Of a DNA stretch of 64,000 bases, positions 471 through 62,819 are shown piece after piece. The DNA is from Owenia fusiformis (taxonomy: Eukaryota > Annelida > Polychaeta > Sabellida > Oweniidae). The stretch spans positions 18,674,813 to 18,738,812 of the forward strand of contig CAIIXF020000002.1 of the NCBI GenBank assembly GCA_903813345.2. Direction: 5' to 3'. The notes below the pieces were generated by a model, which worked only from the letters and a program-made list of their open reading frames with translations, ran no database searches and was not told where the DNA came from. The number at the start of each line of letters is the position of its first letter. Position 1 is the first letter of the stretch. The translations under genes were made by a program, and so were the position numbers.

Positions 471-1319
471 TTTTATACAAAGCCCTCAATGGTATTAACT
501 GTATTCTTCTTTAATTTGGCGCTACTTCCTAACATCTGTCTTTATCTTGACATGAATTAACAAACTATTATATTGGGAAACATGCCAGAAATTAACATTA
601 TTTATTGATGGTCATCTTTATATCTCTTAACCCTGGGGTATTCCCCCTCTAAATTAATCTCTGTAAATGGTAGAAGATTTTGATGACCTACTCCAACCAT
701 TTAAAAAGTAGTCAGATTCAATTTATTGTTTGTATTTTGATTTCAGATTTTATAAATTGTATCATAATTTCCAAGTGCTCTTCAATAATCAGTCAATGGA
801 GGATGAATTGATACGCTTGGTTGATGATATTAAAGTTCTCCAAATATTAGGGGAAGTATCCATTAATGGGTAAAACCAATAGATTTCATTATTTAAAATC
901 TGTTTCTTGTTGGCAGTCAAAAACAACATCTGCAACAAATGTTACGCTTTTGTCACCCTTTTATATGAGTTATTTTACATTTTTGCTAGAACCAGAAAAA
1001 TAGTGGAGCTGTTTTGTTACACTGTCAAATGACAATTTTTGTCATTTTTAAAATGGCAGCCAATCTATGGCTGTTACCTAGTTATGAACTGTGAAGTATT
1101 ATATTATCCTGCAATAAACTCCTTCCTTTTCAAATAAAATCAGTGTCAATGTATATACTTAATATTTTCTAGGTGGGTTTACAGTCGGCAGTATACTTGT
1201 GGACCCCAATGTGTTAAGAGAGCAAGTGATAAGCCTTTAAAATTGAACCCTTCAATGACTGTATCATGTCCCACGTAGGAGGGTAGGTGGGTATGAGGTA
1301 GGAAATTTTTTATACCAAG
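471..1319 (+). repeat. 845-bp spacer module, copy 1
   Basis: This non-satellite module recurs almost unchanged at 25724, 28246 and 30593, and its right half alone at 24618 and 27140. It holds exon-like pieces a and b. Between them lie two adjacent hairpins: AAATGACA...TGTCATTT near 1027-1048 and CAGCCA...TGGCTG near 1057-1074. In this copy and at 30593 the module continues into the exon c region. In the others its right end (TTATACCAAGCC) joins directly to sat80 at a shared AAGCC. Confidence 0.9.
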
Positions 1320-1491
1320 CCGAGAGAGATGCAGCGAACACACCAAGTTAATGCGACAGCTGGATCAGTTTTTCGACAACTTTGTGCCATCAGATCCAGT
1401 CCAAGTAAACAGTATCATGGGCGAGAGGTGTTCGTGTTCCTGTCACTTACACCCCAGTCACATTTGTCGCAGGGAGGCCGTGAATCAGTGA
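747..1491 (+). pseudogene. Three exon-like pieces (a, b, c) of an unrecognised protein, block A
   Basis: Piece a is 747-869, after the acceptor TTTTGATTTCAG and before the donor GTAAAA. It encodes 40 codons (ending GEVSIN) in an open frame. Piece b is 1173-1274, after TATTTTCTAG. It encodes 33 codons including YTCGPQCVKRASDKPLK. Piece c starts at 1320 after a 45-bp GT...AG gap and encodes a Cys/His-rich stretch (RCSCSCHLHPSHICRREAV) before a TGA at 1489-1491. The phases fit at both junctions (two leftover bases plus one), so one frame reads through all three. I do not recognise the protein. Compared with the other copies, piece a here has an in-frame 3-base deletion and an E-to-K change. The 45-bp intron is very short for an animal, and piece b could instead end at the TAG at 1276-1278. 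The upstream start is not seen. These pieces are most likely a captured gene fragment carried by the repeat. Confidence 0.5.
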
Positions 1492-1596
1492 ATTTCTGCG
1501 GCGAGCGTAGAAAAACTACGTTTGCCTTGCGGTCTCCGTCCGGCGTATCCAGTTTTTTACAGGCCGCAGGGTAGCCGTAGAAATTAAAACTCGTAG

Positions 1597-2330
1597 TTAT
1601 AATATTTGTTCATATCTGTGATCCCCGTAGAAATCAACAGGCCGTTGCCAGACCACAGAAAGGTCCAACGATGGCCGCACGTCGGGTTCCGTTGACTTGC
1701 TTCTACTGTAGGGTTTGATGGGTAATGTACCTTTGGAAACAGTTTTTATGTCAGTTTTCGGTCATATATTTGCTGTAAACGCAACAAAGTACGTATACTT
1801 TTTGATGTCAGGCCAGCAACTTATATTTCACTTACACTTTTTATTTGATACTATATCCTAACACTACAAACAACATTTATAAATTGTATTGATGTAGATA
1901 AAATAAAAAGAAGAATTAACGTTAAATCAACAGAAATTCAAAAACTCAGAGTTATAATATTTGTTCATTTCTGCGGTCCCCGTAGAAATCAACAGGCCGT
2001 TGCCAGACCACAGAACAGTCCCACGGTTGCCGCACATTGACTTGCGTCTGCCGTAGTATGCGTGATATACATTTGGAAACAGTTTTAGGTCAGGTTTGCT
2101 GTCGTATCTTTGCTGTAAACACAGCGTAATAGATATACTGTTTGATGTATTACCATAGCAACCTATACTACAAAAGATTAAGTTACTTATGGTCAATGTA
2201 ATATCCAGCACTTTCTATTTGATACTATATACTAGCACTATAAATAACATTTATGAATTGAACTAATGTAAATAAATTAAAAATAAACAACGTTTATCAG
2301 CAGATATTCAAATTTCGCCGTGAAGCTGCC
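1597..2330 (+). repeat. Imperfect tandem duplication, two ~354-bp units
   Basis: Unit 1 begins at 1597 and unit 2 at 1951, both with GTTATAATATTTGTTCAT. They share the block AATCAACAGGCCGTTGCCAG, then TTTGGAAACAGTTTT, and end with similar TTTGATACTATAT...AACATTTAT stretches. The units are clearly diverged, so this duplication is older than the block duplication, which is nearly identical. In block B the second unit is interrupted by the DIRS-like element. Many short CCGTAGAAA/CCGCAGAAA motifs extend to about 2450. Confidence 0.85.
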
Positions 2331-2953
2331 GCAGGAAATGTGACTGCAAAACTATCCTACCCCAGAAATTCTACGGAGAGCGACGTAGAAATGTTACTGA
2401 CCGCAGAAATGACAAACCGCACGTTTGCCGTAGAAAATGTGACTTGGGTGTTACTAACCAACCAACTAATGAACCAGGTAACCACCAGACCACCAAAAAG
2501 GGTAAAACTAACTAACCAATTAACTAATTAATCAACCAACTAACCAACACTCCATCCATCCAACGAACCAAACAACCAACGAACCAGACTGCAACAAACG
2601 AACCAGATGACCAAGATCATGGATCTAGTGTCTTGTATTGTTTTGTATTGTTTTGAATTGTATTGCATTGTATTTTTTGTATTGTATTTGTTTTTCGTTG
2701 ATCAATACTTACTCAGTAATGATTCAATTTTAAAGTTCACCTCATGTACTACTCAAGATCTAAATTTTGAAGGTCTGAAGTCTTATGTTCATTTTAAGCT
2801 ACAGTTGTATATTGAAGGGTATTTTCTTTTGGGTGTAATTTTAATTTCAATTTAAAGGTATTCATGTAAAATTGTGGGCTTAGTTTCGGGATTTTCTTTG
2901 TTTTTAATTGAATCATCTCTGATCTTTTCCTTAAATGTACTTTGAGGTGCATT
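2331..2953. other. Non-coding stretch with simple repeats
   Basis: No gene is seen here. About 2450-2600 is a degenerate (AACC)n/(AACTAACC)n tract and about 2630-2695 is a (TTGTA)n-like tract. The latter is a purer TTGTA run in block B (near 35369-35400), showing microsatellite change since duplication. Confidence 0.7.
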
Positions 2954-3037
2954 CCTCTTGCCTTGGAGAAATTAAAGTGAAACATAAAAGAAAAAACCAC
3001 AGAGAATCTACAATTTGTGCTACCCATCTGCAGCATT
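2954..3037 (+). repeat. Left copy of a long direct repeat flanking the LINE
   Basis: The sequence starts CCTCTTGCCTTGGAGA, passes ACCACAGAGAATCTACAATT and ends near CTGCAGCA. The matching copy lies just after the LINE tail at 4473-4560. The copies are diverged, with small indels in the A-rich middle. It is best read as an unusually long target-site duplication, or an older tandem repeat into which the LINE inserted. Confidence 0.75.
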
Positions 3038-3044
3038 TGTATCT

Positions 3045-4360
3045 ACATACCTCGGCAGGGAGATAATATTTCTCCGACATTATTTATAATCTTTGTAAAT
3101 GATCTCGTTACGGAAATAAAAAGGCTTAATGCAGGTGTCGATATCGCAGGAGACAATGTAAGCATATTACTGTATGCTGATGATGTTGCATTGATCGCAC
3201 CAACTGAATTAAAGCTGCAACAAATGCTGAACTGTCTTCATGATTGGATATATAAGCGGCGACTGACTGTAAATGTTGAAAAAACGAAAGTAGTGCACTT
3301 TAGGAGAGCGTCGACAATGTTAACAGAAGCAATATTTGTGCTAGGGGATGCAAAAATTGGAAAAATAAACTCTTATCGCTATCTCGGAGTTGTTATGAAT
3401 GAGATTCTCGACTACACTGAAATGGTTTCCACTCTAGCTGATGCAAGTTCTCGATCCCTTGGCGCTCTTATTGGAAAATATTATTCGATTACTGGACTTC
3501 ATTATTCGACATTCACAAAGATGTATAATGCAACCGTTATCCCCATCATGGATTACGGGGCTGGAGTTTGGGGCTATAAAGACTATGACAAACCAAATAC
3601 TGTCCAAAACCGTGCCATGAGAACATTAATGGGCTTAGGGAAATATGCTCCCATTCCAGCTATGTATGGAGATATAGGCTGGATACCACCATCTGTTAGG
3701 CACCATGTTGAAATGGTTCGTTTATTCATCCGACTTAGTAGAATGCCAAGAACAAGGATTACTCAAAGAATATTTGACTTTGACTATGCCAATGCTGAAA
3801 AAGGCCATAGAGGATGGTGTAAAGAGGTCAAAGATATATTTGAAAATTCTAACCTGTTAGACCTCTATAATGAACGTTTCTTTAATAATTCAAGTGCAAG
3901 GTCAACATTTAAAACTGTAAAAGATTCTGAAATGAATCGCTTTATACATAAATGGACAGTTCAAATAACTACAATGCCAAAGTTACTTACATATAAGTTA
4001 ATTAAAGACAATTTTGGTACAGAGGATTATATAAAATTATTTTTATCAAGGAATCAAAGATCTGTTATTGCTAGAACTCGGTCAGGTACTCTTCACCTGA
4101 ACATAGAAACTGGTCGATATAAAGGCCTTGCTGTTGAACAAAGACTCTGTGAGGCATGTAAATATGGACATATAGAAACTGAGAAACATTTTCTTCTAGA
4201 ATGCTCTTGTTACAAGGATTTGAGAAAAACTATAATCAGACCCCCTATGGTTCATGATAATCAAGATTTACTGAAACATCTTCTTTCAAATAAAAATTGT
4301 GTAAAACTTACAGCAAAATTTATAATGTCAGCACTTGAAAAACGACAAAAAATTGTATAA
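3045..4360 (+). pseudogene. LINE reverse transcriptase, C-terminal part, open frame
   Basis: The frame is open for 447 codons from an upstream ATG at 3017, but the first dozen codons come from the flanking repeat. The polymerase part begins at RQGDNISP (residues 13-20), with the catalytic YADD at 53-56 and the thumb-side YLGV motif near residue 118. The middle has the Trp/Tyr-rich region usual after a LINE polymerase. Near the C-terminus lies a CCHC motif (C-x2-C-x9-H-x4-C, starting CEACKYG), a nucleic-acid-binding element common in LINE ORF2 proteins. The endonuclease and the N-terminal fingers and palm motifs, including the first catalytic Asp, are missing, so it cannot be active. The block B copy differs at eight residues, with very few silent changes, which fits neutral decay rather than selection. 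Confidence 0.9.
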
Positions 4361-4470
4361 ATAACACACTGTAATTACATGTATATGTATTTGTATAATG
4401 CCTCATAAGCCTGATTAGGCTGGGTGCCGATTAAGGTGCGTGGCACTTAAATAAATAAATAAATAAATAA
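3045..4470 (+). mobile_element. 5'-truncated non-LTR retrotransposon (LINE), block A
   Basis: The element starts inside the reverse transcriptase coding region, just before the RQGD motif, and runs through the stop at 4358-4360. A 3' UTR of about 85 bp follows, with GC-rich self-complementary parts (GCCTGATTAGGC), then an (AAAT)n tail at about 4448-4470. Truncation at the 5' end and a short-unit 3' tail are typical of target-primed reverse transcription by CR1/L2/I-like LINEs. I cannot assign the clade. A long direct repeat flanks it. The same insertion at the same site is in block B, so it predates the block duplication. Confidence 0.9.
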
Positions 4471-4472
4471 TA

Positions 4473-4560
4473 CCTCTTGCCTTGGAGAGAACAAGAAGAA
4501 TTACAAAAGCAAAAACCACAGAGAATATACAATTTATGCTACCTATAATCTGCAGCACTG
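4473..4560 (+). repeat. Right copy of the long direct repeat flanking the LINE
   Basis: This matches 2954-3037, beginning CCTCTTGCCTTGGAGA and ending near CTGCAGCACTG. It is about 88 bp against 84 bp on the left. It continues into a stretch open in one frame to the TAA at 4716-4718. That stretch has no recognisable domain and no ATG near its start, so I do not call it a gene. Confidence 0.75.
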
Positions 4561-5514
4561 TGAATGCTGCGCCTAGTATGCAGGGTATTATAGGGGGAGA
4601 CTTAACTACAATTGCATTGTTGACAATACATCACTCCCAAAACAATGAAGATGACTTAGGTAGAGAATTTGGAACTGGAAAATTTATCAGTTTATTATTT
4701 ATCTATGCAACAGACTAAGTAAACACAATTAACTGAACGATTATTTATATGTGTGAAAACCACATGCATTTGTATAGGGTAACTTCTGCGTTCAGGTTTA
4801 CGTTTCGATTGGATAACTTAAGTCTCAAATGAGTTGACAATGTACAGATTACAACGATATTACATTTGCAATCACTAATCGATAAATATGCTTCACAACA
4901 AGCAAGGAAACTATTTATGTCAACTGGGAAGAATTCATGAAAATCAAATTCAAATTTGTTTTAGTGTGACAAGACCCTTAAAGTACAAGTTTAGGTATAT
5001 GTTTTCAAAACAACCTTATTCGCAACATCCTTTATCGAAACATCTCTAAGATTGAGTTATCGACTTTAATAAATCTAAGAATAACAGATCCTAGAGTAGC
5101 CCAGCTTTAAAGGCTTTCTACAGGCATCTCTATCATTCATTTGTATATGATTTTGTAACGAAGCTTTTCAAATGTGCTTCATGACCTTTTATTTTTTATT
5201 TTATTTTTTTTTCATGACCTTTTATGGTTGTTATTAGAATATCAGTTACTTATTTGTAGATTGCGCTGAGTTGAACAGGAATATGTGTTTAAAATGAAAT
5301 CTGAAAATGTATTTCATAAATTATAGCTATAGATGATCATGATCTTCACTATGAAGGTATAGACGGCAACATGTATATACTATTAGAATCAATTACCAGG
5401 TTATACATTTTTATCAATATACTTAAAATACTACCTAATATGATAGGTAAAGAACAAATTTTATGAGGAACTTAATTGCAAATCGCATCATAAAATGAGT
5501 AAGTAATGATAATG
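4561..5514. other. Non-coding stretch, no gene seen
   Basis: The sequence is AT-rich and unique within the block, with its counterpart at 37307-38272 in block B. Apart from the open stretch ending at 4718 and the tail-only insertion at 5193-5210, I see no motif, repeat or coding signal. Confidence 0.6.
5178..5225 (-). mobile_element. Tail-only retroinsertion with 15-bp target duplication
   Basis: TTCATGACCTTTTAT occurs at 5178-5192 and again at 5211-5225, flanking nothing but a T-rich tract made of T and TTTTA runs. This is what an extremely 5'-truncated LINE insertion on the minus strand would leave: a tail and its target duplication. Block B has the same pair at 37924-37938 and 37969-37983 with a longer tract between. 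Confidence 0.6.
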
Positions 5515-5516
5515 TA

Positions 5517-5795
5517 CAAGGGGCGATCAACAAATAACGCAAATAGAGCCCTATCTCAGAAACTAATTGGAGTTAGAACACCAAATTTGATACATCGTAT
5601 CACCATATCATCGTATTGACCTGCTTCAAGTACCCATACCACGGGTTACTATGGTAACTGCAACTTTGACATATATCAATGTTTGTGCCTGTAATTTTCT
5701 GGAAATATTGATGAATGTTTGGTGATACTATGTACAATTAAGTGTTCTAACTCCAACTCTCGTGAGTAATATGCTATATTCACTCGTTCCCTCCA
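5517..5795. mobile_element. Degenerate foldback (MITE-like) relic, block A
   Basis: The left end reads TACAAGGGGCGATCAACAA, close to the TACGAGGGGTGATCAGGAA end of the mariner derivative at 60315. TTGGAGTTAGAACAC (about 5568-5582) and its exact reverse complement (about 5742-5756) form inverted arms, and GTTACTATGGTAAC in the loop recalls GTTACCATGGTAAC of the mariner derivative. The right terminus is not clear. It is probably an old non-autonomous mariner relative. Confidence 0.45.
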
Positions 5796-5816
5796 GTCAC
5801 TCGTGAATATATCATA

Positions 5817-6170
5817 TACTCACTTGAGTATAAACACGATATACGGAATCAACAATTATATAACCTCATACTATCCTGTTTGTTTTTCTTACTGTATGGT
5901 GAATGATGTAAGATGGAAAAAGATCAAGATTATGCACCATTCAAATCTTTGTGTGACCAATCAACAAGTCGTCGGTAGGGCAAATGTAAAAATGTATCCT
6001 GGAACATCTCACTAAATAACCAATATCATGCTGCCACCAGCGTTACGTACGACTGTTGCAAAAATTGACATTTCCTCCAGAGCACAAACTGCATCATAGA
6101 TTTAAGACGAATTAGATATAAAATATATCACGAACGGGAACACCATTCATTAAATCCATTCAAGAGCATA
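5817..6170 (+). repeat. 354-bp segment inverted relative to block B
   Basis: This segment begins with the small hairpin ATACTC-ACTT-GAGTAT, covers a short unique stretch, and enters the satellite at about 5957. It ends at AAGAGCATA. In block B exactly this segment (38574-38927) lies in reverse orientation between the same outer flanks. Breakpoints fall at TA dinucleotides beside GAGTAT/ATACTC inverted repeats. Confidence 0.85.
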
Positions 6171-9100
6171 CTCAAAAATATATATTTAAACGCCTGACAA
6201 AATTGCAAAGGACTGTCATGTACCAGTGTGACGTACGACTAGTCGGAAAATTGACATTTCGTCAAGAGCGCAAATTGCATAAGCGATTTAAGACAAATTG
6301 GATATTATATATCTCCCTAAAAGACAAATCAATCGATACATCCCTCCTTTGGCAAACGTAAAAATATATACATAAACGTCTCACAATATATGAAACTAGT
6401 CGCTGCTACCAGTGCGATGTACAGCTGGTCCGAAAATTGACATTCCGTACAAAGCCCAAAGTAAATCAGACTTGTATGACAAATAAGATACTCAATATCT
6501 CACGAATAGAATGACCAATCAACAAGTCCTCGGTAGGGCAAATGCAAATATGTATTTTGAAACATCTCTCTAAATAACAAATCTCATGCTGCCACCAGCG
6601 TTACGTACGACTGGTCCAAAAATTGACATTTCCTCCAGAGCACAAACTGCATCATAGATTTAAGACGAATTAGATATGAAATATATAACGAACGGGAACA
6701 TCATTCATTAAATCCATTCAAGGGCATACTCCAAAATATATACTTAAACGTCTCACAAAAAGGCAAAGGACTGGCATGTACCAGTGTGACGTACGACTGG
6801 TCGGAAAATTGACATTTCGTCAAGAGCGCAAATTGCATAAGCGATTTAAGACGAATTGGATATTATATATCCCCCTAACAGAGAAGTCAATCGATACATC
6901 CCTCCTTTGGCAAACGTAAAAATATATACATAAACGTCTCACAATATATCAAACTAGTCGCTGCTACCAGTGCGATGTACAGCTGGTCCGAAAATTGACA
7001 TTCCGTACATAGCCCAAAGTAAATCAGACTTGTATGACAAATAAGATACTCAATATCTTACGAATAGAATGACCAATCATTTAGTCCTCGGTAGGGCAAA
7101 TGTAAAAATGTATCCTGAAACATCTCACTAAATAACAAATATCATGCTGCCACCAGCGTTGCGTACGACTGGTCCGAAAATTGACATTTCCTCCAGAGCA
7201 CAAACTACATCATACATTTAAGACGAATTAGATATAAAATATTTCACGAACGGGAATATCTTTCATTTAATCCATTCAAGAGCATACTCCAATATATATA
7301 CTTAAACGTCTCACAAAATTGCAAAGGACTGGCATGTACCAGTGTGACGTACGACCGGTCGGAAAATTGACATTTCGTCAAGAGCGCAAATTGCACAAGC
7401 GATTAAAGACGAATTGGCGATAATATATCCCCCTAACAGAGAAGTCAATCGATACATCCCTCCTTTGGCAAACGTAAAAATATATACATAAACGTCTCAC
7501 AATATATCAAACTAGAAGCTGCTACCAGTGCGATGTACAGCTGGTCCGAAAATTGACATTCCGTACAAAGCCCAAAGTAAATCAGACTTGTAAGAAAAAT
7601 AAAATACTCAATATCTTACGAATAGAATGACCAATCAACAAGTCCTCGGTAGGGCCAATGTAACAATGTATCCTGAAACATCTCACTAAATAACAAATAT
7701 CATGCTTCCACCAGCGTTACGTACGACTGGTCCGAAAATTGTCATTTCCTCCAGAGCAGAAACTGCATCATAGATTTAAGACGAATTAGATATAAAATAT
7801 ATCGCGAACGGGAACATCATTCGTTGAAGCCATTTAAGAGCATACTCCAAAATATATACTTAAATGTCTCACAAAATTGCAAAGGACTGGCATGTACCAG
7901 TGTGACGTACGACTGGTCGGAAAATTGACATTTCGTCAAGAGCGCAAATTGCATAAGCGATTTAAGACGAATTGGATATTATATATCTCCCTAACAGACA
8001 AATCAATCAATACTCCCTCCTTTGGCAAAAGTAAAAATATATACATAAACGTCTCACAATATATCAAACTAGTCGCTGCTACCAGTGCGATGTACAGCTG
8101 GTCTGAAAATTTTTATTTCATCAAGTGCGCAAATTGCATAAGCGATTTAAGACGAATTGGATATTATATATCCCCCTAACAGAGAAGTCAATCGATACAT
8201 CCCTCCTTTGGCAAACGTAACAATATATACATAAACGTCTCACAATATATCAAACTAGTCGCTGCTACCAGTGCGATGTACTGCTGGTCTGTAAATTGAC
8301 ATTCCGTATAAAGCCCAAAGTAAATCAGTCTTGTATGACAAATTAGATACTCAATATCTCACGAATAGAATGACCAATCAACAAGTCCTCGGTAGGGCAA
8401 ATGTTAAAATGTATCCTGAAACATCTCACTAAATAACAAATCTCATGCTGCCACCAGCGTCATGTACGACTGGTCCGAAAAGTGACATTTCCTCCAGAGC
8501 ATAAACTGCATCATAGATTTAAGACGAATTAGATATAAAATATATCACGAACGGGAACATCATTCATTAAATCCATTAAAGAGCATACTCCAAAATATAT
8601 ACTTAAACGTCTCACAAAATTGCAAAGGACTTGCATGTACCAGTGTGACGTACGACTGGTCGGAAAATTGACATTTCGTCTAGAGCGCAAATTGCATAAG
8701 CGATTTAAGACGAATTAGATATTATATATCTCCCTAACAGACAAATCAATCGATACATCCCTTCTTTGGCAAACGTAGAAATATATACATAAACGTCTCA
8801 CAACATATCAAACTAGTCGCTGCTACCAGTGCGATGTACAGCTGGTCCGAAAATTGACTTTCCGTACATAGCCCAAAGTAAATCAGACTTGTATGACAAA
8901 TAAGATACTCAATATCTTACGAATAGAATGACCAATCAACAAGTCCTCGGCAGGGCAAATGTAAAAATGTATCCTGAAACATCTCAAAAAATAACAAATA
9001 TCAAGCTGCCACCAGCGTTACGTACGACTGGTCCGAAAATTGACATTTCCTCCAGAGCACAAACTGCATCATAGATTTAAAACGAATTAGATATAAAAAA

Positions 9101-10029
9101 AATATAACGAACGGGAACATCATTCATTAAATCCATTCAAGAGCATACTCCAAAATATATACTTAAACGTCTCACAAAATTGCAAAGGACTGGCATGTAC
9201 CAGTGAGACGTACGACTGGTCGGAAAATTGACATTTCGTCAATAGCGCAAATTGCATAAGCGATTTAAGACGAATTGGATATTATATATCCCCCTAACAG
9301 AGAAGCCAATCGATACATCCCTCCTTTTGCAAATGTAAAAATATATACATAAACGTCTCACAATATATCAAATTAGTCACTGCTACCAGTGCGATGTACA
9401 GCTGGTCCGAAAATTGACATTCTGTACATAGCCCAAAGTAAATCAGACTTGTATGACGAATTAGATACTCAATATCTCACGAATAGAATGACCAATCAAC
9501 AAGTCCTCAGTAGGGCAAATGTAAAAATGTATCCTGAAACATCTCACTAATTAACAAATCTCATGCTGCCACCAGGGATACGTACGACTGGTCCGAAAAG
9601 TGACATTCCCTCCAGAGCACAAACTGCATCATAGATTTAAGACGAATTAGATATAAAATATATCACGAACGGGAACATCATTCATTAAATCCATTTAAGA
9701 GCATACTCCAAAATATATACTTAAACGTCTCACAATATTGCAGAGGACTGGCATGTACCAGTGTGACGTACGATTGGTCGGAAAATTGACATTTCGTCTA
9801 GAGCGCAAATTGCATAAGCGATTTAAGACGAATTGGATATTATATATCTCCCTAACAGACAAATCAATCGATACATCCCTCCTTTGGCAAACGTAAAAAT
9901 ATATACATAAACGTCTCACAATATATCAAACTAGTCGCTGCTACCAGTGCGATGTACAGCTGGTCCGAAAATTGACATTCTGTACATCACCCAAAGTAAA
10001 TCAGACTTGTATGACAAATAAGATACTCA

Positions 10030-32355: not shown

Positions 32356-32359
32356 TGGA

Positions 32360-35783: not shown

Positions 35784-35790
35784 TGTATCT

Positions 35791-37216: not shown

Positions 37217-37218
37217 TA

Positions 37219-37306
37219 CCTCTTGCCTTGGAGAGAACAAGAAGAATTACAAAAGCAAAAACCACAGAGAATCTACAATTTATGCTACCTATAATCTGCA
37301 GCACGG
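37219..37306 (+). repeat. Right copy of the LINE-flanking direct repeat, block B
   Basis: Counterpart of 4473-4560, beginning CCTCTTGCCTTGGAGA and ending near CTGCAGCACGG. Confidence 0.75.
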
Positions 37307-38555: not shown

Positions 38556-38573
38556 CACTCGTGAATATATCGT

Positions 38574-50900: not shown

Positions 50901-53311
50901 CCTCCTTTGGCAAACGTAATAAAAATATATACACAAACGTCTCACAATATATCAAACTAGTCACTGCTACCAGTGCGATGTACAGCTGGTCCGAAAATTG
51001 ACATTCTGTACAAAGCCCAAAGTAAATCAGACTTGTATGACAAATAAGATACTCAATATCTCACGAATAGAATGACCAATCAACAAGTCCTCGGTAGGGC
51101 AAATGTAAAAATGTATCCTGAAACAAATAACAAATCTCATGCTGCCACCAGCGTCACGTACGACTGGTCCGAAAAGTGACATTTCCTCCAGAGCACACAC
51201 TGTATCATAGATTAAGACGAATTAGATATAAAATATATCACGAACGGGAACATCATTCAATAATCCATTCAAGAGCATACTCCAAAATATATACTTACAC
51301 GTCTCCCAAAATTGCAAAGGACTGGCATGTACCAGTGTGACGTACGACCGGTCGGAAAATTGACATTTCGTCTAGAGCGCAAATTGCATAAGCGATTTAA
51401 GACGAATTGGATTTATATATCTCCCTAACAGACAAATCAATCGATACATCCCTCCTTTGGCAAACGTAAAAATATATACATAAACGTCTCACAATATATC
51501 AAACTAGTCGCTGCTACCAGTGCGATGTACAGCTGGTCCGAAAATTGACATTCCGTACAAAGCCAAAAGTAAATCAGACTTGTATGACAAATTAGATACT
51601 CAATATGTCATGAATAGAATGACCAATCAACAAGTCCTCGGTAGGGCAAATGTAAAAATGTATCCTGAAACATCTCTCTAAATAACAAATCTCATGCTGC
51701 CACCAGCGTTACGTACGACTGGTCCGAAAGTGACATTTCCTCCAGAGCACAAACTGCATCATACATTTAAGACGAATTAGATATAAAATATATCACGAAC
51801 GGCAACATCATTCATTGAATCCATTCAAGAGCATACTCCAAAATATATACTTAAACGTCTCAGAAAATTGCAAAGGACTGGCATGTACCAGTGTGACGTG
51901 CGACTGGTCGGAAAATTGACATTTCATCTAGAGCGCAAATTGCATAAACTATTTAAGACGAATTGGATATTTTATATCTCCCTAACAGACAAATCAATCG
52001 ATACATCCCTCCTTTGGCAAACGTAGAAAAATATACATAAACGTCTCACAATATATCAAACTACGATTTACAGCTGGTCCGAAAATTGACATTCCGTACA
52101 TAGCCCAAAGTAAATCAGACTTGTATGACAAATAAAATACTCAATATCTTACGAATAGAATGACCAATCAACTAGTCCTCGGTAGGGGATATGTAAAAAT
52201 GTATCCTGAAACATCTCAATAAATAACAAATATCATGCTGCCACCAGCGTTGCGTACGACTGGTCCGAAAATTGACATTTCCTCCAGAGCACAAACTACA
52301 TCATAGATTTAAGACGAATTAATTATAAAATATATCACGAACGGGAACATATTTCATTTAATCCATTCAAGAGCATACTCCAAAATATATACTTAAACGT
52401 CTCACAAAATTGCAAAGTACTGGCATGTACCAGTGTAACGTACGACTGGTCGGAAAATTGACATTTCGTCTAGAGCGCAAATTGCAGAAGCGATTTAAGA
52501 CGATATGGCGATAATATATCCCCCTAACAGAGAAGTCAATCCATACATCCCTCCTTTGGCAAACGTAAAAATATATACATAAACGTCTCACAATATATCA
52601 AACTAGTAGCTGCTACCAGTGCGATGTACAGCTGGTCCGAAAATTGACATTCCGTACAAAGCCCAAAGTAAATCAGACTTGTATGACAAATTAGATACTC
52701 AAAATCTCACGAATAGAATGAGCAATCAACAAGTCCTCGGTAGGGCAAATTTAAAAATGTATCCTGAAACATCTCACTAAATAACAAATCTCATGCTGCC
52801 ACCAGCGTTACGTACGATTGGTCCGAAAAGTGACATTTCCTCCAGAGCACAAACTGCATCATAGATTTAAGACGAATTAGATATAAAATATATCACGAAC
52901 AGGAATATCATTCATTAAATCCATTCAAGAGCATACTCCAAAATACATACTTAAATGTCTCACAAAATTGCAAAGGACTGGCATGTACCAGTGTGACGTA
53001 CGACTGGTTGGAAAATTGACATTTCGTCTAGAGCGCAAATTGCATAAGCTATTTAAGACGAATTGGATATTATATATCTCCCTTACAGACAAATCAATCA
53101 ATACATCCCTCCTTTGGCAAACGTAAAAATATATACATAAACGTCTCACAATATATCAAATTAGTCGCTGCTACCAGTGCGATGTACAGCTGGTCCGAAA
53201 ATTGACATTCCGTACATAGCCCAAAGTAAATCAGACTTGTATGACAATAAGATACTCAATATCTTACGAATAGAATGACCAATCAACAAGTCCTCAGCAT
53301 GGTAAATGTAA

Positions 53312-54976
53312 CTAGACATGTAAATTGAACAAGTTCAATTTAAGACTCCAGATTTCAGACTTTTTTTAAGCTGAGTCATCCAAATACTTGTAAGCTGAGT
53401 CATTCAGAAAAGGCTGAGTCAGCTAGAATATAGACATTTAGACAACTCTTAAGAATGTTATCTTCGACTACATTGGCTTAACACGGGGATATCATCGTAT
53501 CGACTTTTCGAGACTTCAAACCGCTATAACTATCTAATCAGAAGTTGGATCAAAATTTGGTTTAAAGATTCTGATTCCTGAGAAAATTCTACCCTTAATT
53601 CATAACTCATACGTTAAATTTTGAGAACTTCTTATTTTGACCTACTTTTCAGACACCATATCTCAAAAGTGGGTCAAAATACTTTCTGACGGCAGAAAGC
53701 TAACACTATTAGCACACTCTTTGCTACCTGTATACAAAATTTCGTAGCAAATCATTAAAATGTAATGTCAGAATCGCAAAAATAAGGAAAAACTATGAAT
53801 TTGACCTAGATTTTGACCTAGGCATTTTGGTCTCCAAATTTTAAAGCTAGATAGCCTTCGAGGTCCCCTTCTTTTATAGGCTTTCAGAATGTTAAGCTGT
53901 ACTAAGTTTATATCTGGTATTTTACACTTCAAAAAAATCTTTTTTCTCATTGACATAACATGGGGCACCAAATTTAGCGATTTATGAGCTTTCAAAACGC
54001 CATAACTTCCGAACTGAAAGTCGGATTGAAATTTGGTTTGCAGATTCGGATTCCTGGAAAAATTCTTCTCTTAATTCATAGCTCATATGTTAAATTTGGA
54101 GAACTTTTTATTTTGACCTACTTTTCGGACACCATTTCTCAAAAGTGGGTCAAAATACTTTCTGACGGCAAAAAGCTAACACTATAAGCACAGTCTTTGC
54201 TACCTGTATACAAAATTTTGAAGTAAATTATTAAAGTGTAGTGTCAGAATCGTAAAAATAAGGAAAAACTATGAATTTGACCTAGATTTTGACCTAGGCA
54301 TTTTGGTGTCCAAATTTTGAAGCTACCGTGTATGTAGCTTTTGAGGTCCCCCTTCTTTTATAAGCATTCATTATGTTAAGCTGTACTCAGTCTATATCTT
54401 GTATTTTACACTTCGAAAAACTCTTTTTTCCCATTGACTTAACATAGGCACCAAATTTAGCGATTTTTGAGCTTTCAAAACGCCATAACCTCTGAACCGA
54501 AAGTCAGATCGATTTTTGGTTTCAGATTCGGAATCCTGAGAAAATTTCCTATAAGACTAATATCCTGGACATTGGATTCGGAGAACCTTTTTTTGGACCT
54601 CGTTTTCGGACACTGATATCTCGAAATCGGTTTGAGATACCAAAAAACTAAATCGAATCTAGCTTTTCTCCTTTTTTATGAGGAACACAACGAAAAAAAA
54701 ACCGGATCAAAAATATTGAAGGACGACCGAGATAATGGGAAAAAGTGACAAAGTACTGGATTTGACCTAGTTCTTGACCTTTGACCTTGATAAAAATTTG
54801 ACCTAATTTCCCAGAAAGCCAGATACATTCCCTAGTCAACCATGTAGGTTGGATTAAGTAAGATGTTATAGTTGGAGAGAAAATCTGTTAGGAGGAAGAA
54901 AGAAGAAGAAGAAGAAAAAGAATAATAAGAAAACAGGCAAAAACAATAGACTCCAGATTTTCAATCTGGAGTCTAA
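53312..54976. mobile_element. Helitron-like non-autonomous element with terminal hairpins
   Basis: About 1.66 kb interrupts sat186 between AATGTAA and TTATGAATCC, contiguous in the related monomer at 49985. Near the left end, TAAATTGAAC and GTTCAATTTA (53321-53330, 53333-53342) form a perfect 10-bp hairpin. At the right end, 54947-54959 and 54963-54975 form a perfect 13-bp hairpin with loop TTC. The right hairpin arm AGACTCCAGATT also occurs near the left end at 53343. The right end reads CTAA next to a T, fitting the CTRR/T rule of Helitrons; alternatively TAA could be a 3-bp target duplication. It carries internal tandem repeats and a GAA-rich tract but no coding region. Confidence 0.65.
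53471..54850 (+). repeat. ~480-bp tandem repeats inside the Helitron-like element
   Basis: Three imperfect units begin near 53471, 53948 and 54432 at CATTGNC(T/A)TAACA(C/T). Shared parts include CGCCATAAC, GATTC.GATTCCTG, TTTTGACCTACTTTTC, GACACCAT.TCTCAAAAGTG and TGAATTTGACCTAG. The third is the most diverged. A core of tandem units is common in non-autonomous Helitron-like elements of molluscs. Confidence 0.8.
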
Positions 54977-57900
54977 TTATGAATCCTGAAACATCTCACT
55001 AAATAACAAATATCATGCTGCCACCAGCGTCACGTACGACTGGTCCGAAAATTGACATTTCCTCCAGAGCACAAACTGCATCATAGATTTAAGACGAATT
55101 AGATATAAAATATATCACGAACGGGAACATCATTCATTAAATCCATTTAAGAGCATACTCCAAAGTATATACTTAAACGTCTCACAAAATTGCAAAGGAC
55201 TGGCATGTACCAGTGTGACGTACAACTCGTTGGAAAATTGACATGTCGTCAAGAGCGCAAATTGCATTAGCGATTTAAGACGAATTGGATATTATATATC
55301 CCCCTAACAGAGAAGTCAATCGATACATCCCTCCTTTGGCAAACGTAAAACTATATACATAAACGCCTCAAAATATATCAAACAAGTCGCTGCTACCAGT
55401 GCGATGTACAGCTGGTCCGAAAATTGACATTCCGTACATAGCCCAAAGTAAATCAGACTTGTATGACAAATTAGATACTCAATATCTCACGAATAGAATG
55501 ACCAATCAACAAGTCCTCGGTAGGGCAAATGTAAAAATGTACCCTAAAACATCTCACTAAATAACAAATATCATGCTGCTACCAGCGTTACGTACGACTG
55601 GTCCGAAAATTGATTTTCCTCCAGAGCACAAACTGCATCATAGATTTAAGACGAATTAGATATAAAGTATATCAGGAACGGGAACATCATTCATTAAATC
55701 CATTCAAGAGCATACTCCAAAAAATATACTTAAACGTCTCACAAAATTGCAAAGGACTGGCATGTACCAGTGTGACGTACGACTGGTCGGAAAATTGACA
55801 TTTCGTCAAGAGCGCAAATTGCATAAGCGATTTAAGACGAATTGGATATTATATATCCCCCTAACAGAGTAGTCAATCGATACATCCATCCTTTTGCTAA
55901 CGTAAAAATATATACATAAACGTCTCACAATATATCAAACTAGTCGCTGCTACCAGTGCGATGTACAGCTGGTCCGAAAATTGACATTCCGTACATAGCC
56001 CAAAGTAAATCAGACTTGTATGACAAATTAGATACTCAATATCTCACGAATAGAATGACCAATCAACAAGTCCTCGGTAGGGCAAATGTAATATCGTATC
56101 CTTAAACATCTCCCTAAATAACAAATATCATGCTGCCAGCCGCGTTACGTACGACTGGTCCGAAAATTGACATTTCCTCCAGAGCACAAACTGCATCATA
56201 GATTTAAGACGAATTAGATATAAAATATATCACGAACGGGAACATCATTCATTAAATCCATTCAAGGGCATACTCCAAAATATATACTTAAACGTCTCAC
56301 AAAATTGCAAAGGACCGGCATTTACCAGTGTGACGTACAACTGGTCGGAAAATTGACATTTCGTCAAGAGCGCAAATTGCATTAGCGATTTAAGACGAAT
56401 TGGATATTATATATCTCCCAAACAGACAAATCAATCGATGCATCCCTCCTTTGGCAATTGTAAAAATATATACATAAACGTCTCACAATATATCAAACTA
56501 GTCACTTCTACCAGTGCGATGTACAGCTGGTCCGAAAATTGACATAGCCCAAAGTAAATCAGACTTGTATGACAAATTAGATACTCAATATCTCACGAAT
56601 AGAATGACCAATCAACAAGTCCTCCGTACGGCAAATGTAAAAATGTAATCTGAAACATCTCACTAAATAACAAATATCATGCTGCCACAAGCGTTACGTA
56701 CGACTGGTCCAAAACTTGACATTTCCTCCAGAGCACAAACTGCATCATAGATTGAAGACGAATTAGATATAAAATATATCACGAACGGGAACATCATTCA
56801 TTAAATCCATTCAAGAGAATACTCCAAAATATATATACTTAAACGTCTCACAAAATTGCAAAGGACTGGCATGTACCAGTGTGACGTACGACTGGTCGGA
56901 AAATTTACATTTCATCAATAGCGCAAATTTCATAAGCGATTTAAGACGAATTGGATATTATATATCCCCTAACAGAGAAGTCAATCGATACATCCCTCCT
57001 TTGGCAAACGTAAAAATATATACATAAACGTCTCACAATATATCAAACGAGTCGCTGCTACCAGGGCCATGTACAGCTGGTCCGAAAACTGACATTCTGT
57101 ACATATCCCAAAGTAAATCAGACTTGTATGACAAATTAAATACTCAATATCTCACGAATAGAATGACCAATCAACAAGTCCTCGGTAGGGCAAATGTAAA
57201 AATGTATCCTGAAGCATCTCACTTAATACCAAATTTCATGCTGCCACCAGCGTTACGTACGACTGGTCCGAAAATTGACTTTCCTCCAGAGCACAAACTG
57301 CATCAAAGATTTAAGACGAATTAGATATAAAATATTTCACGAACGGGAACATCATTCATTAAATCCATTCAAGAGAATACTCAAAAATTTATACCTAAAC
57401 GTCTCACAAAATTGCAAAGGACTGGCATGTACCAGTGTAACGTACGACTGGTCGGAAAATTGACATTTTGTCAAGAGCGCAAATTGAATAAGCGATTTAA
57501 GAAGATTTGGATATTATGTATCCCCCTAACAGAGAAGTCAATCGATACATCCTTCCTTTGGCAAACGTAAAAATATATACATAAACGTCTCACAATATAT
57601 CAAACTAGTCGCTGCTACCAGTGCGATGTACAGCTGGTACAAAAATTGACATTCCGTACATAGCCCAAAGTAAATCAGACTTGTATGACAAATTAGATAC
57701 TAAATATCTCACGAATAGAATGACCAATCAACAAATCCTCGATAGGGTAAATGTAAAAATGTATCCTAAAACATTTCACTTAATAATAAATATCAAGCTG
57801 CCACAAACGTTACGTACGACTGGTCCGAAAATTGACATTTCCTCCAGAGCACAAACTGCATCATAGATTTAAAACGAATTAGATATAAAATATATCACGA

Positions 57901-60079
57901 ACGGGGAACATCATTCATTAAATCCATACAAGAGCATACTCCAAAATATATACTTAAACGTCTCACAAAATTGCAAAGGACTGGCATATACCAGTGTGAC
58001 GTACGACTGGTCGGAAAATTGACATTTCGTCAAGAGCGCAAATTGCATAAGCGATTTAAGACGAATTGGATATTATATATCCCCCTAACATAGAAGTAAA
58101 TCGATACATCCCTCATTTGGCAAACGTAAAAATATATACATAAACGTCTCACAATAGATCATCTAGTAGCTGCTACCAGTGCGATGTACAGCTGGTCTGA
58201 AAATTGACATTCCGGACATAGCCCAAAGTAAATCAGACTTGTATGACAAATTAGATACTCAATATCTCACGAATAGAATAACCAATTAAAAAGTCCTCGG
58301 TAGGGCAAATGTAAAAATGTACCCTGAAACATCTCATTAAATAACAAATATCATGCTGCCACCAGCGTTACGTACGACTGGTCCGAAAATTGACTTTCCT
58401 CCAGAGCACAAACTGCATCATAGATTTAAGACGAATTAGATATAAAATATATCACGAACGGGAACATCATTCATTAAATCCATTCAAGAGCATACTCCAA
58501 AATATATACTTAAACGTCTCACAAAATTGCAAAGGACTGGCATGTACCAGTGTGACGTACAACTGGTCGGAAAATTGACATTTCGTCAAGAGCGCAAATT
58601 GCATTAGCGATTTAAGACGAATTGGATATTATATATCCCCCTAACAGAGAAGTCAATCGATACATCCCTCCTTTGGCAAACGTAAAAATATATACATAAA
58701 CGTCTCACAATATATCAAACTAGTCGCTGCTACCAGTGCGATGTACAGCTGGTCCGAATATTGACATTCCGTACAAAGCCCAAAGTACACCAGACTTGTA
58801 TGACAAATAAGATACTCAATATCTTACGAATAGAATGACAAATCGACAAGTCCTCGGTAGGGCAAATGTAAAAATGTATCCTGAAACATCTCACTAAATA
58901 ACAAATATCATGCTTCCCCCAGCGTTACGTACGACTGGTTCGAAAATTGACATTTCCTCCAGAGCACAAACTGCATCATAGATTTAAGACGAATTAGATA
59001 TAAAATATATCACGAACGGGAACATTATTCATTAAATCCATTCAAGAGTATACTCCAAAATATATATTCAAACGTCTCACAAAATTGCAAAGGACTGACA
59101 TGTACCAGTGTGACGTACGACTGGTCGGAAAATTGACATTTTGTCAAGAGCGCAAATTTCATAAGCGATTTAAGACGAATTGGATATTATATATCCCCCT
59201 AACAGAGAAGTCAATCGATACATCCCTCCTTTGGCAAACGTAAAACTATATACATAAACGCCTCACAATATATCAAACTAGTCGCTGCTACCAGTGCGAT
59301 GTACAGCTGGTTCGAAAATTGACATTCCGTACATAGCCCAAAGTAAATCAGACTTGTATGACAAATTAGATACTCAATATCTTACGAATAGAATGACCAA
59401 TCAACAAGTCCTCGATAGGGCAAATGTAAAAATGTATCCTAAAACATCTCACTTAATAACAAATATAATGCTGCCACCAGCGTTACGTACGACTGGTCCG
59501 AAAATTGACATTTCCTCCAGAGCACAAACTGCATCATAGATTTAAGACGAATTAGATATAAAATATATGACGAACGGGAACATCATTCATTAAATCCTTT
59601 CAAAAGCATACTCCAAAATATATACTTAAACGTCTCACAAAATTGCAAATGACTGGCATGCACCAGTGTGACGTACGATTGGTCGGAAAATTGGCATTTC
59701 GTCAAGAGCGCTAATTGCATAAGCGATTTAAGACGAATTGGATATTATATATCCAGCTAACAGAGAAGTCAATCGATACATCCCTCCTTTGGCAAACGTA
59801 AAAATATATACATAAACGTCTCACAATATATCATCTAGTAGCTGCTACCAGTTCGATGTACAGCTGGTCTGAAAATTGACATTCCGTACATAGCCCAAAG
59901 TAAATCAGACAAATTAGATACTCAATATCTCACGAATAGAATGACCAATCAACAAGTCCTCGGTAGGGCAGATGAAAAGATGTATCCTGAAACATCTCAC
60001 TAAATAACAAATTTCATGCTGCCACCAGCGTTACGTACGACTGGTCCGAAAAGTGACATTTCCTCCAGAGCAAAACAAA

Positions 60080-60316
60080 GTCCCCCCAAAATAGATAAAA
60101 ATCAAGATAAACCTTTAATTTCATTAACAAGATACTTTTTTAAAATCAACCAAAATTTCCTCTGTACAATTACAATATTGAGAGACCTAAACATGTTGTG
60201 ATATGTCGTTTTGTTCCAATGAGGTTCGGAAAGATGTTTCATTTCACTCTGGAAACGTGATCCAAAGAACAAAACAAGTGTTTGATGTGTTTTCTAAAAC
60301 AATATAGATGAAAGTA
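60080..60316. other. Integrase spacer, block B, left part
   Basis: This matches 21621-21856, from TCCCCCCAAAATAGATAAAA to ATAGATGAAAGTA, where the mariner derivative interrupts it at a TA. No gene is seen. Confidence 0.8.
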
Positions 60317-60645
60317 CGAGGGGTGATCAGGAATTTCTGGACCGTTGGCTCTATTTTTACCATTTTTTATCCTTTCTTGATGATTTTTTCACATAATATA
60401 ACCCAAATATATAGGATCGCACCATGAAGATTTCAATGTTCTATGACATCATTATCCTTTTATTTTTGTTACCATGGTAACTGGTGACGCGACAAGGTGG
60501 AGCTCAGAAAAAATAACAAATTTGAAAAATCAACAGTAGTTTTATATGATGTTTGGACACTGTATTCATCGCTGAATATATGACATACTGTAATAGGTTG
60601 TATTATATCATGAAGTATATTAATTAATATTCATAGTAATTGTCA

Positions 60646-60736
60646 TTATTCTTCCATCAATTCTAATCCTTCAAAGTACATGTAGTTACCAGCATTTTGT
60701 ACACATTTGTTATGCCTTTTCACCAAGTCCTGAAAG
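60646..60736 (-). pseudogene. Mariner transposase C-terminus, left inverted copy
   Basis: On the minus strand this arm carries the same end of the gene as 60872-61015: the KRHNKC-like and YFEGLELMEE-like parts with the stop at 60646-60648. It has substitutions and a small insertion ahead of YFEG relative to the right arm. It stops matching at the arm boundary. Confidence 0.7.
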
Positions 60737-60844
60737 GCATGATACAGACCGTCTTTTCCTACAAAACGTGATTGTTTCCATCTGTTGTGGCCGTGTACCA
60801 CACGCACCTATCCCCCAGAATTAGCTGGGTGTGATTTCTATCTT

Positions 60845-61015
60845 TTCCCAAGAGTGAAGAACAAATTATGAGGTGTCCACTTTGAGGACATTAATGAGAT
60901 CATTCATGAATTCACACACCAATGTTACGTCTTTCAGGACTGGGTGAAAAGGTATAACAAATGCTTACAAAGTGCTGGTAACTACTTTGAAGGATTAGAC
61001 TTGATGGAAGAATAA
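60845..61015 (+). pseudogene. Mariner transposase C-terminal fragment, right copy
   Basis: From 60872 to the TAA at 61013-61015 the frame reads GVHFEDINEIIHEF, then FQDWVKRYNKCLQSAG and NYFEGLDLMEE. This matches the usual mariner transposase end: a GVRFED-like stretch, WVKRxxKC, then GxYFEG. Just upstream, FPKSEEQ in another frame (from 60845) continues the family pattern (FPKLKEQL), so a frameshift lies near 60868. The DDE catalytic domain and DNA-binding domain are missing, so it is non-functional. Its stop lies about 330 bp from the right terminus. Confidence 0.8.
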
Positions 61016-61343
61016 AAATAGTTACTATGAACATTAATGAATATAATTAATGAAATAATACAACCTATACAGTATGTCACATATTCAGCAATGAATACAG
61101 TGTCTTAACATCATATAAAATTACTGTAGATTTTTCAAATTTTGGTATTTTTCCGAGATCCACCTTGTTGCGTCACCAGTTACCATGGTAACAAAAATAT
61201 AAGGATAATGATGTCATAGAACAATGAAACCTTCATGGTGTGATCCTATCTATTTGGGTTATATTATGTGAAAAAATTACTAAGAAGGGATAAAAAATGG
61301 CAAAAATAGAGCCAACGGTCCAGAAATTCCTGATCACCCCTCG

Positions 61344-61477
61344 TATATATATATTTCAAATTATATTGTTACCTTTCAAAAGATGACCATTAAATTGACG
61401 ATGTGTTAAATTTTTAGATTTTAGTTACATACAAATTGAACTGTCGTGAAGTACTCTTATCATAATAGTTTATTTCT
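61344..61477. other. Integrase spacer, block B, middle part
   Basis: This matches about 21857-21994 from the TATATATA run onward. The acceptor-like end before the integrase exon is changed: block A has TTAATTTTTAG, here it is TTTATTTCTGG, so the AG is lost. Confidence 0.75.
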
Positions 61478-61769
61478 GGGAGTTTTCATTAGGCAGACGA
61501 AACGTGAATGTATTGACAGATGACGAACTTCATACGAAAGTAAAATAATCTATCCAGAACAATCAAAAAATCGGGCCAAATGCAGTCAAGGCAAGGCTTC
61601 AAGGTCAAGGACTTGACGTTGGTCGCCAACGAGTTCGGAATTCCATGCATCGGGTTGACCCTGACGGATGTGCCCTAAGGTCCGTTTCAGATAGGCTTCA
61701 AGACGAACTTATACAGTTCCGGCACCCAACTCATTGTGGTATGTTGATGGAAACCAAACTAATCAGGTT
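61478..61769 (+). pseudogene. Integrase-like exon fragment, block B, frameshifted
   Basis: This is the counterpart of 21995-22283, with MHRVDPDGCALRSVSDRLQ still readable. One A is missing after GGCTTCAA (A has CTTCAAAGACG, here CTTCAAGACG), which shifts the frame before the PxPNxLWYVDGN motif. The acceptor AG is lost and a LINE fragment is inserted at the donor end. This copy is therefore more decayed than block A. Confidence 0.65.
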
Positions 61770-62672
61770 TTTTTTTTTTTTTTTTTCATTTCTCATTTAT
61801 TCCAAATATAACATAAAATACATTACAATATTATTGCCTACGTTTTTCAACATTGTCGGCAATATACAAAAAATATAAAAATGGAAACAATGAAAATACA
61901 ATAGATAAGGTACATAATATTAATGGCAGGGAATGTTAGAGGCTTTCAGGGGGGGGGGGTTAATCTAAAATATCAAGAGCCTGGCAGATGTAATGGCTAA
62001 CTATATGAATAATTTGTTCATTATCAGTTACAGTGAGATTTCTGTCTCCAAATAATAAAAATTGAATTTTTTCATGAGAGTTTAAATTTTGGAAACGATT
62101 GAAAAATCCTAAGGTTTTTAGTCCTGCTAGGAGAGTGCATCTTTCTTGTTGCAGCAGAGGGCAGTTTAATAAAAAGTGATGCGTTGTTTGTTGTATGTCA
62201 CCACATACGCAGAAAGGGTCATTTACTGTCACAAAGTTATGGGAATATAAATGAGCTTTTAGAATCAGTCCAGCTCTAAATCTATTGAACAGAATTTCAA
62301 TTTTCCTTGGCATTGTCATATTCATTTTAGTAGTGGATACTCTGGAGTCAGGGCTCATATTTCCTCTTATTAACCTTTTAAATCTAGATATTGGTTGACC
62401 TTTCCTGTCCTCATATGGTATGTCATCCCACAGGGTCATAGCCCTGATAATGGTTGACTTTTTGAACGAATTACTGATTGGAAAGGGTATTCTATAATGC
62501 CTTGGTTGTCTTAGGGGCCGATTTGGAATATTCTCGTATGAACTAACTAAATCACAAATGAAAGGAGGGAAACAATGGTATCTAGCCTTGAAAGCAAAAA
62601 TTTTAAGATGTTCTTCTCTCCTGGAAGCTAACGTTTTCCAGTTGAGTAATGATAAAACTTTCGATGTGTTTG
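61770..62672 (-). mobile_element. 5'-truncated LINE fragment with poly(A), minus strand, block B only
   Basis: On the minus strand a ~0.9-kb LINE end finishes with AATAAA (complement of 61796-61801) and a run of about 19 A (61768-61786 as T). With the 13-bp target duplication and 5' truncation this is a textbook target-primed insertion. The poly(A) tail and signal set it apart from the (AAAT)n-tailed LINE at 3045/35791, so two LINE lineages are present. A G10 run lies near 61949-61958. Confidence 0.9.
61960..62672 (-). pseudogene. C-terminal end of a LINE ORF2 protein
   Basis: The frame is open from the insertion edge to the stop at 61960; the ~30 codons upstream of the edge (to 62763) come from flanking DNA. 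It covers only the region after the reverse transcriptase. It has LWDDIP, then the basic Phe/Arg-rich RFRAGLILKAHLYSH, followed by a CCHC-like motif C-x-C-x8-H-x4-C (CVCGDIQQTTHHFLLNC). This is the usual end of Jockey/RTE-like or CR1-like LINE proteins. No polymerase motifs are present, so it is dead on arrival, but the frame has no stops, in keeping with a recent insertion. Confidence 0.8.
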
Positions 62673-62685
62673 AACTAATCAGGTT

Positions 62686-62819
62686 AGCATTATTATTAAA
62701 GTAACCTGTATAAAAATACTTTGAATGTAAAAAAGACAGGAATGAATTGATGAAAATTGTCAAACTGCTAGTAATAAAGATTTCCTTTTCACTATTGATG
62801 CTTGATTGATGTTGAACAC
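62686..62819. other. Integrase spacer, block B, right part
   Basis: This matches 22287-22420, ending GATGTTGAACACA before sat80. No gene is seen. Confidence 0.8.

Follow-up and report, generated by a model that had tools for sequence, protein, structure and literature searches.

We analysed a window of 64,000 bases from the genome of Owenia fusiformis, corresponding to positions 18674813-18738812 of contig CAIIXF020000002.1 (C2; 35,751,742 bases, in a 498-Mb assembly of 525 contigs). The window was found to lie inside a tandem array at C2:18583313-18970283 (386,971 bases, 52-53% along the contig), in which two satellites, sat80 and sat186, alternate with spacers and transposon remains. As judged from its sequence, the array is very probably a composite megasatellite that grew by unequal recombination between misaligned copies, a known kind of structure of which this is a large and well-preserved case, unusual for having two satellites inside its unit. 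The order of the units, their shared junctions, collinear satellite subarrays, unit-specific insertions and sequence exchange between units were all read directly.

An irregular array of composite units

The first-pass annotation had described the window as two ~30-kb blocks with satellites, spacers and gene fragments in the same order. Self-alignment of the satellite-masked window confirmed that A spacer, sat186, C spacer and sat80 occur twice in the same orientation, with spacers 97.6-99.6% identical, and the landmarks given earlier (1320/31439 and 22421/62820) were correct. The longest matches were those between the two blocks: 475-2221 aligned with 30591-32355 (97.6-97.7%, offset 30116), 2222-5821 with 34963-38579 (98.0-98.1%, offset 32741), 21613-21856 with 60072-60316 (99.6%), 21859-22286 with 61344-61769 (98.4%) and 22274-22420 with 62673-62819 (99.3%, offset 40399). 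Other matches were internal to modules (the ~354-bp tandem in module T, repeats of the dispersed element insX, foldback arms, and an 85-bp repeat at the ends of a long interspersed nuclear element, LINE), and the remainder were cross-matches of such repeats between blocks and one 49-bp satellite remnant. The blocks had 3555 of 5436 31-mers in common in the A spacers and 542 of 839 in the C spacers; both cross pairs of A with C and a shuffled control shared none, and chance is therefore excluded. With the reverse complement, 75 31-mers were in common, fitting an inverted A4 segment (5814-5949, found at 38929-38794 in block 2 with 99.3% identity). The inversion was absent from the earlier account, as were the inserts of block 2 (32356-34962, 53312-54988, 60317-61343 and 61770-62672) and four partial A spacer copies within the sat80 of block 1 (22422-30590).

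The count of two blocks did not hold, and a two-copy segmental duplication was rejected, whereas the expectation of further copies beyond the window was borne out. A DNA search with the A1 spacer, in which the best 40 of 1217 candidates were scored and the copy count is hence a lower bound, located at least 13 unit-level copies at C2:18588503-18947437, all on the plus strand, besides the four partial copies in block 1. Eleven of these units were read in two stretches free of N (18583313-18848812, nine units; 18922000-18970283, two units); two more, at 18870995 and 18882683, were detected by search alone, the sequence between 18848813 and 18921999 (73 kb) being outside the read stretches. Nor is the unit fixed at ~30 kb: successive A1 starts are 20857, 18744, 47183, 30116, 34251, 41686, 50768, 7418, 31469, 11688, 43318 and 20465 bases apart. 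The array is probably longer than 387 kb, since it begins and ends in sat186 and is bordered by runs of N (500 N to its left, 5.7 kb or more to its right). Left of the 500-N gap, at C2:18579172-18582210, sat186 runs opposite to the array orientation, which may reflect an inverted scaffold piece or an inversion at the array edge.

In its fullest form the unit reads sat80 (a 41/82-bp dimer), A1, T, A2, LINE, A3, A4, sat186, C and sat80. The A modules were in order and led into sat186 in all 11 units read (with A4 inverted in unit U5), and sat80 preceded A1 in 10 of them. What follows sat186 is more varied. In U1 and U6 it is joined directly to sat80, as at five read places altogether; in U7 it is followed by other material and further sat186-sat80 pairs, and in U8 it runs straight into the A1 of U9. 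U9 and U14 extend past the ends of the read stretches, and one further C copy lies at the left end of the array, before U1.

Copying as a unit and exchange between units

The earlier proposal that satellites and fragments were amplified jointly as one unit is supported by shared junctions, collinear sat186 subarrays, unit-specific insertions and mosaic units. Nine of the 10 array copies printed (U5, with its inverted A4, is not among them) have the A4-sat186 joint at one position, the tenth has a short deletion, and the identical joint occurs in the unplaced contig C20. The position of the C-sat80 joint was identical in 6 of 6 cases, and the sat80-A1 joint in all 11 printed (nine units and two partial copies), a count without the units at 18839526 and 18926001, where A1 begins at its base 62 and base 13, respectively. 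The sat186-C joint came in two variants, alpha (four cases) and beta (two). The direct sat186-sat80 joint was ...GCTGCCCCC, at CCCCC, in four of five cases, and all four partial A1 copies met sat80 at AAGCC on their right side. A spacers differed by 0.09-1.79%, and all pairs but one by 0.65-1.79%. Nested tandem duplications were also observed, with shifts of 6.0 kb (6.05 kb aligned, 99.5% identical), 7.0 kb (4.4 kb, 99.9%) and 2.5 kb (3.0 kb, 98.4%), the last in the sat80 region with the partial A1 copies.

Shifting the sat186 array against itself by one or two monomers gives ~68% likeness, and by three monomers 84%, so its repeat is a trimer. This is a multi-monomer higher-order repeat (186 x 3 = 558 bp) of the kind looked for in centromeric satellites. 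A comparison of trimers gave 259 matches at ≥84% identity, and the 176 covering query positions 15-540 were kept as full trimers (mean identity 0.942; two were from C20, two from C2:18.02 Mb and one from outside the named blocks). Arrays split by inserts (B5a/b and B6a/b) were treated as separate blocks. In a collinearity test that looked for the best match of each trimer outside its own block, the partners of adjacent trimers were themselves adjacent in another block for 33 of 117 pairs, compared with a mean of 0.5 and a maximum of 3 in 200 shuffles. Subarrays were therefore copied along with the unit and were not all grown afresh in each.

Several units carry private inserts at positions where the remaining units read are continuous: 25.7 kb in the C spacer of U3, 11.7 kb in the LINE of U6, 0.4 kb in U7, 5.5 kb and 6.0 kb (the latter with inverted ends) in U14 and, within the window, 32356-34962, 60317-61343 and 61770-62672. 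The remaining block 2 insert, insX, is not private, as a diverged copy (79%) is present in the sat186 of U13.

Exchange between copies was found in the form of mosaic units. The test took 8 of the 11 units, leaving out U2 and U13, which have a common deletion, and U9, a near copy of U8; T was excluded throughout, and U5 contributed no A4. Among 53 two-state informative sites, 336 of 1378 site pairs were incompatible. Local incompatibility was 0.044, against a permuted mean of 0.244, and it was as low in none of 2000 permutations of site order. U6 is identical to U14 at the first 39 informative sites and to U5 at the last 14. Furthermore, U2 and U13 (18609360 and 18926001), which are far apart, share their deletion from the LINE into A3; the two search-only units probably carry it as well, because they have the same A3 start in the search. 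Recombination of one kind or another has thus acted over long distances within the array.

Related sequence also occurs elsewhere in the genome. The unplaced contig C124 ends inside sat80 and has A1 and T at 86-95% and A2 at 79%; C20 ends inside sat186 and has A3 at 92-98% and A4 at 99.2%. Both contig ends could be edges of the array. Among the best 17 of 308 candidates scored in a genome search, sat186 was also present at C2:9.92, 14.02, 17.86-17.89, 17.99 and 18.01 Mb, at C12:17.31 and 25.56 Mb, at C11:8.57 Mb and on C483 and C265; steps of 558 bp can be made out at C2:9.92 Mb and C12:17.31 Mb. At C2:11.675-11.684 Mb, sat186, sat80 and A1 pieces (78-94%) occur together, mostly in the opposite orientation, and at C2:18.022 Mb sat186 directly adjoins sat80 via a different joint. 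The two satellites came together more than once, and the array is the sole place found where the larger unit was multiplied.

Origin of the array and comparison with known systems

An ancestral repeat-rich stretch of sat80, A spacer with T element and LINE, sat186 and C spacer would have been duplicated in tandem, and the array would then have expanded and contracted through recombination of misaligned copies, reaching 387 kb or more, with no fewer than 13 unit-level copies, about midway along C2. Unequal crossing-over may have been the main engine, with the satellites as the substrate for mispairing, and microhomology joins (AAGCC, CCCCC) may have created the new partial and direct junctions. 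The place and content of the array suggest a heterochromatic setting, and the spacers would have no selected function.

Several observations weigh against this account. Mosaicism fits both crossing-over and gene conversion. Units farther apart along the array were not clearly more divergent in sequence (Spearman 0.15; as high in 706 of 5000 permutations), and stepwise similarity of neighbours was not seen; the missing trend argues against stepwise unequal crossing-over between adjacent units, since such exchange would tend to produce one. The word "unit" must be taken loosely, because just five of the 11 units read (U2, U3, U4, U5 and U13) have C after sat186. Trimer identity was the same within blocks (0.9422) as between them (0.9421), and the best trimer match lay in another block in 154 of 176 cases, with ~91% expected from block sizes; both figures indicate only that sat186 has undergone no block-specific homogenisation. 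Finally, the array is known from a single genome assembly, in which the 73 kb outside the read stretches could hold gaps.

The last point bears on whether the array is an assembly artefact, in which one real unit or a few would have been duplicated falsely, for example by placing both haplotypes in tandem or by graph loops via the satellites. The assembly evidently broke on this repeat, given that C124 and C20 end in sat80 and sat186, and runs of N bound the array on both sides. Two of the sub-duplications are nearly identical (99.9% and 99.5%), and the copy divergence of 1-2% is close to the heterozygosity of some invertebrates. However, false duplication would be expected to leave two copies only, without private insertions, whereas 11 units were read within two N-free stretches, all pairs but one differ by at least 0.65%, and several units carry private inserts, which argues against computer-made copies. 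Two haplotypes or a simple doubling cannot yield 13 copies with unit-specific inserts, and diverged relatives exist elsewhere (C124, C2:11.68 Mb). Assembly doubling is thus an unlikely explanation, and we give an artefact of this sort only a slim chance. Replication-based amplification, by rolling circle from excised circles with reinsertion or by break-induced replication with template switching, could stand in place of unequal crossing-over. It would agree with the low divergence lacking a clear distance effect, with the microhomology at new joints and with the small inverted segments at sat186 edges, but all 13 unit-level copies were found head to tail on one strand, and the long mosaic tracts are directly explained by homologous exchange. 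We regard these routes as a minority possibility.

Unequal recombination of a composite unit was also set against transposition of a giant mobile element bearing the satellites. The partial presence of modules at C124, C20, C2:11.68 Mb and C2:18.02 Mb might suggest such an element. However, the unit-level copies found were all in one array and one orientation, no common unit ends were seen, with boundaries varying, and the relatives at C124 and C2:11.68 Mb are incomplete, with identities of 78-95% as opposed to 98-99.5% inside the array. With the caveat that the A4 of C20, at 99.2%, lies where the contig ends, perhaps at the edge of the array, the giant transposon was rejected as scarcely credible. 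A selected function, as a centromeric or pericentromeric array or as a source of non-coding or small RNA, also seems rather improbable. The position at 52-53% of C2, the trimeric higher-order repeat of a 186-bp satellite and several related repeats nearby at C2 15.7-18.2 Mb (a descriptive observation) speak for it, and 186 bp is close to the nucleosome repeat length. Against it, sat186 and sat80 arrays also occur megabases away, and no match to the CENP-B-box core was found on either strand within the 64-kb window, although this box is dispensable in some lineages. Compared with a pattern of one main array per chromosome, sat186 was located on C2, C11, C12 and the unplaced C20, C265 and C483 and not on other large contigs, a weak point given that the best 17 of 308 candidates were scored. 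A pericentromeric role is possible, the setting being deduced from place and content. It is doubtful that the array is part of the functional (peri)centromere of this chromosome, a domain in which a composite unit of two satellites and transposon debris would be copied and exchanged together while variants of its own, such as the alpha and beta joints of C and the subfamily with the A deletion, spread through it.

The array is an irregular member of the megasatellite, or composite tandem repeat, class: multi-kilobase copies stand head to tail at one locus (13 A copies, all plus), and several repeat classes including transposons are represented (the LINE with RVT_1, the dispersed T and C1 repeats and two satellites). 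Regular unit length and content, which we treat as non-defining, was not observed, with spacings of 7.4-50.8 kb and C in under half of the units read. To our knowledge, the units of the macrosatellites D4Z4, DXZ4 and NBL2 contain no embedded satellite arrays. A review describes these units as 1.4-3.3 kb long and sets out unequal-exchange theory (PMC8122249); the likeness to the Owenia array is in tandem units on the kilobase scale, and the difference is in their size. In addition, D4Z4 is described as containing the gene DUX4 (PMC9186530), whereas no gene was recognised in the Owenia unit. Another parallel is offered by human megasatellites of interspersed-transposon patterns, for which one account gives an array of 12-kb units spanning 600 kb-1.7 Mb and presumes expansion by unequal crossing over (PMC2588610). 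These, as described there, likewise have large tandem units built of transposon patterns; here, in contrast, A1 starts are spaced irregularly and most units have two long satellite arrays. Composite repeats are reported in complete ape and human assemblies, as tandem composite repeats on the sex chromosomes of apes (PMC11168930) and as composite arrays of transposable elements on the short arms of human acrocentric chromosomes (PMC9186530). They resemble the present array, from these reports, in having several repeat types per unit, and differ in that the Owenia unit consists mostly of its internal satellites, one of which forms a higher-order repeat of its own. The "transposon graveyard" model, in which shuffled and degraded remains of heterochromatic transposons give rise to tandem repeats (PMC12628747), offers a parallel in the origin of the repeats, but as presented there it concerns satellite monomers with short transposon likeness, whereas the unit here is a whole stretch of tens of kilobases. 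A literature search on annelid higher-order repeats returned no annelid case and a grasshopper study instead.

The array fits the composite-repeat kind and stands at its complex end, having a unit that is long and variable and includes two satellites. It is a readable layered repeat, with 186-bp monomers within 558-bp trimers, trimers within satellite blocks and blocks within the macro-unit, and its junction variants, private inserts and mosaic tracts reveal the level at which recombination acts. It also provides a test case for satellites that spread by riding on segmental duplication versus expanding in place and, if it were centromeric, would bear on the formation of composite centromeres.

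Modules in the window and further insertions

All features of the window are on the plus strand unless stated. The window begins in the tail (1-474) of a sat80 array that starts at C2:18672440. Unit U4 starts with A1 (475-1446), the "exon" spacer, followed by T (1447-2455), a dispersed element whose ~354-bp internal tandem (1579-1942 and 1932-2312) was seen in the masked self-alignment. A2 (2456-2950), the truncated LINE (2951-4560), A3 (4561-5821), which has no long frame, and A4 (5822-5949), with its joint to sat186 at the shared position, come next. The sat186 array occupies 5950-20730, and an inverted segment of it (20761-21551, minus strand) lies ahead of C (21613-22420). The sat80 of U4 (22422-30590) includes the partial A1 copies at 24618-25057, 25722-26571, 27140-27579 and 28245-29094 and the sub-duplication with a 2.5-kb shift.

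U5 comprises A1 (30591-31565), T (31566-35196), split by a 2.6-kb retroelement piece at 32356-34962 (a 424-aa frame without clear family, then RVT_1 at E 6.3e-11), and A2, LINE and A3 (35197-38579). A sat186 piece (38571-38789) and A4 (38794-38921) follow on the minus strand (38571-38921), inverted relative to the other units read. The sat186 of U5 is divided into 38922-53311 and 54989-60071 by insX (53312-54988). Its C spacer (60072-62819), with the beta junction, contains two inserts; the one at 60317-61343 is a 1.0-kb foldback element with ~420-bp arms ~90% alike, and the other is at 61770-62672. The sat80 of U5 (62820-64000) runs on to C2:18739653, the start of U6 A1. A TGTAT microsatellite has 14.2 copies in block 2 (35366-35435) and 12.2 in block 1 (2629-2688).

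What had been called gene fragments proved to be mostly transposon remains. In the LINE, Pfam recognised the C-terminal part of RVT_1 (E 8.9e-16) in a 459-aa open reading frame. Of the 11 LINE modules, 3 keep this frame at its full length, and the other 8 have a shorter one (two with the common deletion, one cut by an insert). The integrase stood only weakly, as an 86-aa frame in C (22065-22325) matching rva_4 at E 0.017, below the curated cut-off. The "exons" of A1 fell away: the frames tested at 712-870, 1297-1488 and 1302-1571 had no Pfam family at E 0.1, their splice-site-like flanks were seen by eye only, and the protein-coding reading was dropped. A good part of the spacer consists of transposon debris. 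T, the left part of C (~21605-21937) and insX are families spread across many contigs among the matches listed, where T has half-length relatives of 82-89% on many other contigs and insX has relatives of mostly 86-96% on at least 11 large contigs. The insX family consists of ~1.6-kb repeats on many contigs, often in tandem (e.g. C14:31917-43916), and the 3' end of insX, by eye, has a hairpin and then CTAA, in a Helitron-like manner.

Further insertions were noted outside the window. A 25.7-kb insert (C2:18646395-18672069) splits the C spacer of U3, the C pieces overlapping imperfectly by ~22 bases of the reference module; two frames in it, of 224 and 145 aa, matched nothing in Pfam at E 0.01. 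In the LINE of U6, an 11.7-kb insert (C2:18742555-18754302) with inverted ends (TATGGTGTAA...) is flanked on both sides by the 6-base ATCTGC and has no frame above 176 aa. A 996-aa open frame adjoining the sat186 of U7 (L016:3363-6350), with Exo_endo_phos_2 and RVT_1, is apparently a long LINE ORF. The A3 insert of U14 (L028:5846-8660) contains retroelement fragments that match RVT_1, RVT_3 and Dam methylase, the last a domain reminiscent of DIRS-like elements. Lastly, the final ~119 bases of A1 (1322-1440) recur at 94-95% identity with ~2.3-2.5-kb spacing at C12:20.73-20.75 Mb and C2:15.75 Mb, and also on C5, as a separate tandem family.

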